Shown piece after piece: positions 7,180-11,002 of a DNA stretch of 64,000 bases. The DNA comes from Magnetococcales bacterium (GTDB lineage Bacteria; Pseudomonadota; Magnetococcia; Magnetococcales; UBA8363), in assembly GCA_015228815.1 (NCBI GenBank), contig JADGCV010000015.1, positions 1 to 64,000 of the forward strand, in the 5' to 3' direction. How positions within the stretch are numbered: the stretch's first letter is position 1; every line of letters begins with the position of its first letter. The position numbers and the translations under genes were made by a program. The notes under the pieces are model-generated. The model worked only from the letters and a program-made list of their open reading frames with translations, was not told the origin of the DNA and searched no databases.

Positions 7180-7809
7180 TCATCCGTTCGGGAAATTCCA
7201 TAAATGGTCCAAAACATCGGCGAACCGACCTGCCGGGGAGACGTTCTGGCGAAACGCTTCCTGGACCAGGGGGGCAATCTCGTTCATGGGAAAAATGGTT
7301 CGAGTTTGCCCACCCAGATAGGGCAAGGGCATCATGACAGCGTCGGGATGGAACTCGGCGAGCAGTTCCTTCTCATCTTCAAGGCCGTTCATTCCGCCCA
7401 TGAAGACAGCCAGGCCGATCTTGTTTTCACGGATCATGGTTTGGCGAAAGTGGGTCAAACTGGCTTCGAGATTGATTTGGGCAAAGGGGTTGTTCTCATC
7501 CCGCACAACCCGGTCAACCAAATGGAGGGACGCGAAGTGTTTTTTGATTTCGGGGGAGAATTTTGCCTCGAAATGGCGGGAAAGGTAAAGTTTAATGTGG
7601 GACATTCGATCCATTTTATCGCCCCACTGGGCGATAAAATGGGTGATGGAAGGATGTCCGCCGTAGATCAGGGGAATTTCTCGGATGGAGGTTTCCTGGG
7701 CCAAGGCCAACACGGCGTCACGCATTGCCTGGGGGTCGGTGTCGGAGTAATACGGGGGGCGTTCGGGGTCGGGAAGACTGGCCGAGAGAAAAACAGCTTT
7801 GGAGTTCAT
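7180..7809 (-). CDS. Stand-alone SLOG-domain protein (putative nucleotide-ligand sensor)
   Basis: The product is about 209 residues. It begins with an FLSASLPDPERPPYY strand-loop and contains an I-Y-G-G-H-P-S-I-T ligand-loop motif and a V-F-M-G-G-M-N-G-L-E-D-E motif, all hallmarks of the SLOG (SMF/DprA-LOG) Rossmann-like family. SLOG domains bind or process nucleotide-derived ligands and occur in bacterial conflict systems; in Thoeris ThsA a SLOG domain senses a TIR-made NAD derivative. Here the SLOG is alone, with no SIR2, membrane or nuclease domain. Its ATG overlaps the stop of the TIR gene by 4 bp, and GAGG lies just upstream. The family call is good; the ligand and role are inferred. Confidence 0.75.
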   Translation of the reverse strand: MNSKAVFLSASLPDPERPPYYSDTDPQAMRDAVLALAQETSIREIPLIYGGHPSITHFIAQWGDKMDRMSHIKLYLSRHFEAKFSPEIKKHFASLHLVDRVVRDENNPFAQINLEASLTHFRQTMIRENKIGLAVFMGGMNGLEDEKELLAEFHPDAVMMPLPYLGGQTRTIFPMNEIAPLVQEAFRQNVSPAGRFADVLDHLWNFPNG

Positions 7810-9020
7810 GAAGTACCTCGCAACCATCGATCCAGGGAGTTTTGTTCCACGGCCCGGACCGGCAATTCATGGTTGAGCCAGTCCAAATGGCTGCGCCATC
7901 GGGGATCCATTCCCGATCCATTGTAGAAAAGGGCTGTGTTTTCGGGAGAGAGACTGCATTTTGCCATTATCAGGAAGAGATCATGATAATTTTGGCTCTC
8001 TGGACGTCCTGTTACGACACGCAGTCGTCGGGGAGACCCTGTTTTGGCGTGGAGTCTGATTTCGTTGGGCAGCGTTTCGGGGGTGAGGTTCCATTTTCGT
8101 GCCCGGTCCCGGCAATAGCCATACAGCTTGAGAAAGCGCAGACCAACTCCCTGGGCCCGCATCTCTTCCACCGCATCGGCCAAGGTTGCTACCAGGAGTG
8201 GGTCGAGGCGATGCTCCCTGGGAGTATGGCCGGGAGTGGCGATTCGTTGGGAAGGCGTCAGGTCAATGCTTTTCATGAAACTATTGTCTTGATTGGGCGA
8301 CTCGTCCACTTCGGGCCAACGCAAACGCAAGATGCCGATGCCGTGCTCCTTGGCCTGCTGCAACTCTTTTTGTACCCATTCGCTTTGCCCGAGGTTGGGG
8401 GAATCCAGCAGAAGCAGCAGATCCGAATCCATGAGTTGGTGCATCAGTTGGATTTGAAACGGGGTGCTGGGAACCACTTCGGCGGTGTCGAGAAAAACAT
8501 CATACCCCCGCCGGTTGAGGGCGTCGAAAAGTTGTTCGGCGATGGCGGCGGAATCGTCCCGCTTGTAGCTGAGGAAAACCTTCCGCTTGTCTCGCAGCAG
8601 GGAGAAGGTTTCCAACAGTCCGTTGACCAGCCTTTGCCGCCAATTGGATTCATCCTGGAAGACGCATTGATAATCCTGGCATTCCTTGGGCAGTTCGGCC
8701 TGGATGATCTGGAGGTCATTGCGGCTGACCACGGGAAAGAGCGGCAATCCCAGTCGCATGACCGTTTGCAGAAGATCCTGGTCGGGGCGGGAGGAGTGGC
8801 CACCGTAGACCACCGCCAGCAACAGAATGGGGGCGGCGGTTTGCCGGCATTGTTCCAAGTGGTTAGCAAACTCTTGTGGAAGCCAGAGACGCATCCAGGT
8901 TTCAGGATTGTTTATCCCCAGGGATCTGCCTTTCCGAAGAAAGGACTTCCAGATTTCCGTTCTCCAGGAGTCCGCGGCGCCAAGGAAGAGCACATTGTAT
9001 GCGTGACGCGAGGGACTCAT
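7806..9020 (-). CDS. TIR-domain protein, probable NAD-processing partner of the SLOG protein
   Basis: The 404-residue product has three parts. Residues 8-140 form an unassigned alpha/beta domain starting YNVLFLGAADSW. Residues 146-280 are a TIR domain: RKVFLSYKRDD, GYDVFLD, and a helix with S213, W215 and E219, where E219 fits the catalytic Glu of NAD-cleaving TIRs. Residues 315-404 form an unassigned alpha/beta tail. TIR enzymes in defence systems make NAD-derived signals or deplete NAD. ATG 9020 is chosen because AAGGAAA lies about nine bases upstream; the frame opens further back at 9089. It is the first gene of a two-gene operon with the SLOG gene. Confidence 0.82.
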   Translation of the reverse strand: MSPSRHAYNVLFLGAADSWRTEIWKSFLRKGRSLGINNPETWMRLWLPQEFANHLEQCRQTAAPILLLAVVYGGHSSRPDQDLLQTVMRLGLPLFPVVSRNDLQIIQAELPKECQDYQCVFQDESNWRQRLVNGLLETFSLLRDKRKVFLSYKRDDSAAIAEQLFDALNRRGYDVFLDTAEVVPSTPFQIQLMHQLMDSDLLLLLDSPNLGQSEWVQKELQQAKEHGIGILRLRWPEVDESPNQDNSFMKSIDLTPSQRIATPGHTPREHRLDPLLVATLADAVEEMRAQGVGLRFLKLYGYCRDRARKWNLTPETLPNEIRLHAKTGSPRRLRVVTGRPESQNYHDLFLIMAKCSLSPENTALFYNGSGMDPRWRSHLDWLNHELPVRAVEQNSLDRWLRGTS

Positions 9021-9091: not shown

Positions 9092-10825
9092 CTAAAACAA
9101 TTCGATGCTATCCTCGGATTGGGTCGGTTCGCCGAACATGTCCACGTTTTCCCCCAGGACCTCGCCATGGATGCGACGTTCGCTGTCCATGGTGTACATG
9201 TCGGCCAGATCCTTGAATTCCTTGGCGAGTTCCTGAAGGTTTCCTTCGAGTCCCGCCATGATTTCGGGACCTGCGACTTTGGTGTTGATGGTTTCCAGTT
9301 GATCGAGGATCTTCGTGAATTTTTTCTCGATGGAATTGTGAAATGTCATCTCCGCCGACAACAGCATGATCTGAATGACGATGGTGCGGAATTCGGCCAG
9401 ATTTTCGGTCATCATCGAGCGGATGTCGGTGTTGGTGGACTCGATTTGTTGCAGGATCAGGGGGAGGCGGCGCAGCAGGCTGTTGGTCCGCATGATCCTG
9501 GGCGCGGTCTTCTCCGAGAAGAACATGGTGATTTCTTGGAGTTTGTCAACGGATTTCAGGAGTTGGGCGATCCGTTCCTTTCCTTCGACCTTGATCATTC
9601 GCGAAATGTCGGCGACCGATTTTGCCAGGTTTTCCAGTCGGCCATTGCGGCTCGTATCGAGTCCCATGACCAGGTGTTCCAGCCGTTCGCTGGTCATGGT
9701 CAGCATGTCCAGGGCGCGTTTGGCCTGGAAAATGGCATTTTCCGCCCGGGAAAGAGTTTTGAGGACATCGTTGGAAAGATTTTCGTCGAACACCCCGAGA
9801 CGCAGCAGCATATGCAGGTGATAACCGATTTCGGCACAATCGCGGCGCACCTCCATGCTGAGCCCCTGGGCCCCGGTGATGCAATGTTTCTGTCCTTCGG
9901 CGATGTCGGAAATCCGTGTCAGTTGGTCGTGCATGGACCCCACGGCGTGGATCAGGTCGGCGATGATCGAGCGCAATTGTTCGCTGCCGATCCGGGTGGC
10001 CAGGACGAACCAGCGCAGTCGGGTCGTGGGATCGGGATCGGTAGCCAGTCCCTTCAGTTTTTCCTCGGCCCCTTTCAGGGCGACGACGACATGGCTGATC
10101 CGTTGCGACGAAATATCGTCATATTGCATCGCCTGGACCATCTCGAAAATAATTTCGTTGACCCCTTCGGTCTGACTGTCGATCGAAGAACAGTCGCCAT
10201 CAAGCCTTTTGACCGCGGTGCTCATCCGTTTGAGGCTGGAAGAGGTGTTTTTCTTGAGGACTTCAAGGCTGTACCGCGAGGAGTCGAGGTCGGCGACGAT
10301 GCGACGTGTCAGATGGTTCATGATGTCGCTGGCCTCCTGGGAGGAAGAGGCAACCTCGCCGATCAGGGGACGCATCTGCCGCATCAGGCTGTCGATGATG
10401 GCTCCGAGGGTTTGCCGTTCCAGTTCGTCCCGTCCTTGTCCGCGCACCTGGTCCACCATCAACGGCAGATGGGCATCCTGCTCCAGGCGCAGACCCCAGT
10501 CGGTGATCTGTTCCATGTCCCGGGTGAAGACCTCCTTGTCCTTGACCAACACCTCGATGGAGTCGAAAACACCGGTGATTTCACGATAGATTTGCCGCAA
10601 ACTGAGCCTGAGATCGGTCAGGCCCATTTCGCTCTCGCGAACACCGATTCGTTCCCGTATGGTAATGGCGCGGCTGGCGCTCGATGCAAAACTGGCGGAA
10701 AAATCGCCCATGTGCTCGGCAATGTTCATGAAGCCGGCCTTGGTGTTGTTGGGAACATCCTCCAAAACGCGGATATGTTGTTGCAGAAGAGGCAGGATTT
10801 CCTCGATCGGTTGCGAAAGAGACAT
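9092..10825 (-). CDS. Long coiled-coil protein with a CheZ-like DxxxQ motif
   Basis: The protein is 577 residues, almost all helical, without membrane segments. The stretch M-Q-Y-D-D-I-S-S-Q-R-I around residue 237 gives D237-x3-Q241, the spacing used by the CheY-P phosphatase CheZ. The following I-S-H-V resembles the helix after the CheZ catalytic site. Flanking helices look like methyl-accepting-protein or CheZ four-helix bundles. A role in dephosphorylating a response regulator, or as a cytosolic receptor-like scaffold, is inference. ATG 10825 follows GGAG at proper spacing; TTG 10837 is an alternative. No che genes are adjacent. Confidence 0.6.
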   Translation of the reverse strand: MSLSQPIEEILPLLQQHIRVLEDVPNNTKAGFMNIAEHMGDFSASFASSASRAITIRERIGVRESEMGLTDLRLSLRQIYREITGVFDSIEVLVKDKEVFTRDMEQITDWGLRLEQDAHLPLMVDQVRGQGRDELERQTLGAIIDSLMRQMRPLIGEVASSSQEASDIMNHLTRRIVADLDSSRYSLEVLKKNTSSSLKRMSTAVKRLDGDCSSIDSQTEGVNEIIFEMVQAMQYDDISSQRISHVVVALKGAEEKLKGLATDPDPTTRLRWFVLATRIGSEQLRSIIADLIHAVGSMHDQLTRISDIAEGQKHCITGAQGLSMEVRRDCAEIGYHLHMLLRLGVFDENLSNDVLKTLSRAENAIFQAKRALDMLTMTSERLEHLVMGLDTSRNGRLENLAKSVADISRMIKVEGKERIAQLLKSVDKLQEITMFFSEKTAPRIMRTNSLLRRLPLILQQIESTNTDIRSMMTENLAEFRTIVIQIMLLSAEMTFHNSIEKKFTKILDQLETINTKVAGPEIMAGLEGNLQELAKEFKDLADMYTMDSERRIHGEVLGENVDMFGEPTQSEDSIELF

Positions 10826-11002
10826 CAAATTCTCCAAGAAAAGGACGTGTCATGGTATCACGAACGTAAATGCCATCCGCTGATGTGATGCATTTGTCCA
10901 TCCTACCCTGTCACAAGACCGGGGTAAAGACTGGCAAACCATTTCCGAGGCCGTTATCCTGACGGTCTTCGGTCCGCCAATACCCTATCGAAAGATTGAA
11001 AC

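Follow-up and report, generated by a model that had tools for sequence, protein, structure and literature searches.

A pair-only form of the Thoeris type III ThcB4–ThcA genes in Magnetococcales, a possible minimal defence module

The window analysed here is the whole 64,000-nucleotide stretch of a Magnetococcales genome (contig JADGCV010000015.1, positions 1 to 64,000), in which two adjoining genes on the (-) strand encode a ThcB4-type TIR protein of 404 aa (7806..9020; ATG at 9020, stop at 7808-7806, with an AAGGA Shine-Dalgarno-like sequence) and a ThcA-type SLOG cluster3 protein of 209 aa (7180..7809; ATG at 7809, stop at 7182-7180, with a GAGG Shine-Dalgarno-like sequence). The stop codon of the TIR gene and the start codon of the SLOG gene meet in an ATGA overlap, seen directly in the sequence (7806..7809, (-)), which we interpret as translational coupling; the range of 7180-9020 given for the pair is exact. 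An earlier note had described a TIR gene coupled to a stand-alone SLOG gene at this position, and a domain HMM search agrees with it: Pfam assigns TIR_2 (62 bits) to the first protein and SLOG cluster3 (PF18180, 99.7 bits) to the second, both far above cut-off, and finds no domain besides SLOG in the latter. These scores, together with conservation in homologues, exclude chance open reading frames. The absence of a visible separate effector domain had also been pointed out, and indeed none was found in the pair.

Under the curated cut-offs of NCBIfam release 20 (110 bits for ThcA, NF058525; 220 bits for ThcB4, NF058526), the SLOG protein of the window scores 132.1 bits against ThcA and the TIR protein 268.1 bits against ThcB4. 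As both exceed the cut-offs for Thoeris type III, the pair is already named at family level. Further to that, the PADLOC model for ThsB matches all 55 ThcB4 proteins, that of the window nearly end to end (residues 4-401), while no model for ThcA was found in PADLOC. The pair therefore cannot count as an unrecognised system. The name ThcB4 implies further TIR genes, ThcB1-3, although these are not known to be defining. A literature search turned up no accessible account that defines type III Thoeris or explains its mechanism; one paper mentions TadIII, a phage gene reported to give protection against this Thoeris type (PMC12390725).

In gene order, strand and coupling the window pair is like all the other type III loci, but it has neither the small ThsB-type TIR genes nor the SLOG-patatin gene that can adjoin them. 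Identity to members outside the Magnetococcales clade is 19–29% for ThcB4 and 24–38% for ThcA. The pair resembles type I Thoeris (a ThsB TIR protein with a SIR2-SLOG ThsA) in uniting a TIR enzyme with a SLOG protein of the sensor kind, the fold of ThcA being nearest to the ThsA SLOG. Unlike type I, however, it includes no SIR2 and its SLOG is a separate protein, so that the contrast previously drawn with a SLOG fused to SIR2 holds. A TIR signalling protein is likewise common to type II (TIR with a transmembrane-macro ThsA) and type IV (TIR with a caspase-like protease), whereas the pair is devoid of a transmembrane or macro domain and of a protease domain.

The TIR domain of ThcB4 (residues 142-272; 8205..8597, (-)) is assigned by Pfam and matches the SARM1 TIR in both sequence and fold. 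It is flanked by an N-terminal alpha/beta domain, Rossmann-like in predicted structure (residues 1-141; 8598..9020, (-)), and by a C-terminal region which is modelled as a long helix followed by an alpha/beta domain (residues 273-404; 7809..8204, (-)). Extra domains on both sides of the TIR had been noticed before, and in the AlphaFold2 model (pLDDT 92) both non-TIR parts are indeed folded. Neither gave a specific fold match in the PDB, and profile comparison of both with TIR and SLOG gave no detectable similarity. The idea that they are hidden TIR or SLOG copies is thus unsupported (1.6% probability for the N-terminal domain against TIR). A Foldseek likeness of the whole model to receptor or periplasmic-binding proteins was dismissed, its rmsd being near 20.

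E219 (GAG codon, 8364..8366, (-)) lies in the W-x-x-x-E motif of the TIR domain and is invariant in 55 of 55 ThcB4 homologues; D178, F149 and S151 are likewise invariant in these proteins, and W215 nearly so. The family profile of ThcB4 aligns the E219 stretch with KDWVHKE of SARM1. Because this alignment puts E219 on the Glu of SARM1 DWVHKE (which we take to be the catalytic residue E642), E219 can be regarded as the TIR catalytic Glu, a role that had been called probable. ThcB4 is, judging by these residues, a TIR protein with an intact NADase active site, and it probably breaks down NAD.

When the predicted model of ThcA (pLDDT 93) was compared with the PDB, all seven matches at E<=0.001 were ThsA chains, including the BcThsA SLOG-3'cADPR complex, while LOG proteins ranked later and were weaker. 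Query-normalised TM-scores are modest (0.48–0.57), which speaks for a fold and clade in common rather than for close kinship. By sequence the matches to ThsA/STALD are weak, with an E-value of 0.086 in one search and 11 of 52 members matched in another. The pocket motif GGMxGxxxE, whose Glu is E146 (7372..7374, (-)) and which aligns with GVxxE of Streptococcus ThsA, is present in 51 of 52 homologues; so is R122 of the pocket helix (7444..7446, (-)). In ThsA the pocket residues are Arg371 and Glu403 (PMC7272460), and both reportedly coordinate 3'cADPR (PMC10022894). Judged by secondary structure, R122 is probably equivalent to ThsA R371. We conclude that ThcA, a SLOG protein that stands alone, is of the sensor type known from Thoeris and probably senses a nucleotide signal.

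LOG phosphoribohydrolases share the SLOG fold with ThcA, but their motif PGGxGTxxE is found in none of the 52 ThcA homologues and the fold match to them is weaker. A LOG-type metabolic enzyme was accordingly rejected for ThcA, and the earlier concern that the SLOG might prove to be an ordinary LOG enzyme did not materialise, its closest likeness being the ThsA sensor. It is possible, if rather doubtful, that ThcA is an enzyme of another kind: ThcB4 would be the signal maker, like ThsB, and ThcA an effector which, when switched on, cleaves a nucleotide (for example at the ribosyl-base bond of NAD+ or ATP). Hydrolases of this kind are known among SLOG proteins (LOG), 1'-ribosyl linkages are predicted targets of SLOGs (PMC9503650), R122 and E146 are both kept, and the name ThcA parallels ThsA. 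However, the sensor ThsA keeps its Arg and Glu too, and a sensor role for ThcA is preferred because the LOG motif is absent, with GGMxGxxxE present instead in 51 homologues, and because ThsA, a sensor, matches its fold best.

Scanning one genome per species returned 78 named ThcA loci, which together with whole-genome loci make 83 distinct loci. A ThcB4 gene lies upstream of ThcA on the same strand in 81 of them, mostly at a spacing of -22 to +13 bases. Both loci without it (L082 and L094) are truncated at the end of a contig, and one locus (L036) has two opposite-strand ORFs between the two genes. The possibility, raised before, that homologues rarely co-occur is not what was found. Across 398 genomes of the phylum, full-length ThcB4 family proteins and ThcA occur in the same seven, as checked in both directions; these seven include one genome, G008, whose ThcA falls below the cut-off but sits next to ThcB4. 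Compared pair by pair over 52 loci, ThcB4 distances correlate with ThcA distances at r = 0.82, against a maximum of 0.25 in 500 permutations. ThcB4 and ThcA are inherited as a unit. In a Succinivibrio MAG (L086:4025-6675), a 677-aa protein fuses ThcB4 with a SLOG domain, and a second, stand-alone SLOG follows downstream.

Companion genes are frequent elsewhere. At least one small TIR gene is present in 69 of the 83 loci; many of these belong to PF08937 (the ThsB family), and the small TIRs retain the active-site Trp and Glu of TIR domains. The number of small PF08937 TIRs varies beside a single ThcB4–ThcA pair. Their distances were compared with those of the pair class by class, as pooling mixes paralogues: two of three classes gave r of 0.10–0.23 and the third 0.73–0.76. 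We read this as a fixed core, the pair, served by signal makers that are exchangeable like the ThsB genes of Thoeris. A SLOG(cluster2)-patatin gene occurs in 11 of the 83 loci, every time with small TIRs. Being found in only 11 loci, it is probably optional in type III, and where this SLOG-phospholipase is present ThcB4–ThcA need not be the killing unit. This suggests a modular type III layout, in which the ThcB4–ThcA core is fixed, the small TIRs can be exchanged and the SLOG-phospholipase is optional.

An Escherichia coli plasmid (NZ_CP034659.1, 204900-213400; L123) carries a full type III locus, made up of ThcB4, ThcA, a SLOG-patatin gene and four other TIR genes, with a TnsD gene adjoining; its annotation holds only TIR proteins, a 'CBASS cGAMP-activated phospholipase' and a hypothetical protein. 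A UDG-like/MazG_C/Nmad2 gene set adjoins the pair in 25 of the 83 loci, nearly all of them proteobacterial. In these roughly 25 loci (L045-L084) the pair stands beside a convergent set of UDG-like, MazG_C, Nmad2 and small TIR genes, as at L057:7245-10639, a neighbourhood suggestive of a linked nucleotide-modification defence. Type I restriction genes lie near or around the pair in 15 of the 83 loci, mostly in Bacteroidota.

In the window the pair directly adjoins two core genes, htpG and, on its 5' side, a gene for a 581-aa coiled-coil-like protein (9092-10837) present in 7 of 8 genomes of the genus. The latter was rejected as a third partner, being a genus core gene that stands beside htpG where the pair is absent. 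The pair itself is found in 2 of the 8 genomes. In three others (G004, G005 and G007) htpG and the 581-aa gene are only about 75–125 bases apart, leaving an empty site, and G007 carries the pair at another site. In the sister species G002 the same slot is filled by a different gene (L117:2440-3540), which, reading its sequence by eye, we take to be Rpn-like, of the PD-D/ExK transposase type. The slot between htpG and the 581-aa gene appears to be a small insertion hot spot. As the pair is patchy in the genus and relatives have empty sites, it is an accessory module that was acquired at more than one site, which is what defence genes would be expected to do. Base composition gave no sign of foreign origin (55.2% G+C in the pair versus 55.5% in its neighbours). 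Relatives of ThcA are found on 29 plasmids, of which 18 are classed as conjugative. A phage origin was rejected: a search of 50,697 phage records found nothing related to ThcA, and a BFVD fold search returned generic SLOG/Rossmann matches only. Elsewhere in the window, a small nucleotidyltransferase gene (NTP_transf_2, MNT-like; 1236-1607) is possibly half of a toxin-antitoxin pair.

The core-gene surroundings of the pair in the window, with no defence island, could be taken to mean that it has nothing to do with defence, with a SLOG that works in metabolism as a LOG-type enzyme and a TIR protein that serves some other role. We consider this highly improbable, as the LOG motif is absent and curated Thoeris families are matched. 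The patchy distribution in the genus, the empty sites and the carriage on conjugative plasmids speak against it as well, as does the placement of the pair in other genomes inside type I restriction-modification operons and beside a Tn7-like gene.

In four Magnetococcales genomes (that of the window, G007, G026 and G019) the pair stands alone, without companion genes, at different sites and with no third gene in common. The four ThcB4 proteins form a clade with support of 100/99, far from all others. Pair-only loci also occur outside Magnetococcales (L066, L061, L087 and L093), the last two on long branches. No further TIR gene lies beside the pair in the window flanks, and a PF08937 search of the window's genome for ThsB-type TIRs had no match; searches of that genome for LD_cluster2 and STALD, run without a positive control, had none either. 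Its only SLOG cluster3 protein is the pair's own, neither of its two patatins has a recognised SLOG, and its other two TIR_2 proteins are TIR-FGE proteins; the absences in this genome rest on family searches.

A SLOG-patatin effector beside the pair in 11 other loci, a KGGVGR-NACHT-FGE gene after the pair in G008, and the two other TIR-FGE proteins of the window's genome, one of which has a NACHT-FGE neighbour, would all suit a pair that is the signalling half only, its signal being answered by an effector from another place in the genome. This seems unlikely to us: the three other Magnetococcales relatives hold the pair at different sites with no common third gene, and LD_cluster2, STALD and a second SLOG cluster3 were not found in the window's genome, although the controls of these searches are weak. 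An unlinked effector whose domain is unfamiliar is nevertheless conceivable. A self-contained pair is preferred to one with an unlinked effector because it occurs alone at different sites in the four relatives.

We therefore favour, with moderate confidence as the sequence does not reveal which way the signal runs, a minimal defence module of the Thoeris type III family that was acquired horizontally and consists of two proteins, ThcA gating ThcB4 as NADase effector. ThcA would bind an ADP-ribose-derived nucleotide and, once bound, switch on ThcB4, whose TIR domain, also the effector, would destroy NAD+. The loss of NAD+ would stop the infected cell before phage release and so abort the infection. 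The pair would be the functional equivalent of the SIR2-SLOG ThsA, with the TIR replacing SIR2 and the two halves on separate chains. Elsewhere among bacteria the signal would come from small ThsB-type TIRs. In the window's genome, with no ThsB-type TIR found, ThcB4 itself would have to sense the infection, through its N- or C-terminal domain, and set off the signal. The reverse direction, with ThcB4 making a signal on which ThcA acts, also fits the data. Only tentatively do we go further and picture the Magnetococcales pair as an autonomous minimal system of a new design, free of ThsB-type TIRs and of a dedicated effector: its TIR protein would at once sense phage, make the signal and, as effector, destroy NAD, and its own product would switch it through the separate SLOG subunit in a feed-forward loop.

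New here are a reduced form that branches deeply and holds the pair alone, and evidence for ThcB4–ThcA as the fixed core of Thoeris type III. Type III loci usually hold several TIRs and sometimes a phospholipase, which makes the roles of sensing, signalling and killing hard to separate. A pair without attachments may show which two proteins are the working core. Because ThcB4 and ThcA always go together and co-vary, the clade with these two alone offers the smallest set for a direct test of type III roles.

Two further arrangements were seen in this order. In G008 (L015:6746-11834), ThcB4 and a divergent ThcA are followed by an overlapping gene for a 1082-aa KGGVGR ATPase-NACHT-FGE protein, which might serve type III Thoeris as an attached STAND sensor. 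In the window's genome, contigs C6 (L018:3491-8554) and C9 (L017:1406-8530) each encode a TIR-FGE-sulfatase protein near a protein of >1000 aa, which on C6 is NACHT-FGE and on C9 has a similar start; this recurrent TIR-FGE/NACHT-FGE pairing is possibly another conflict system.
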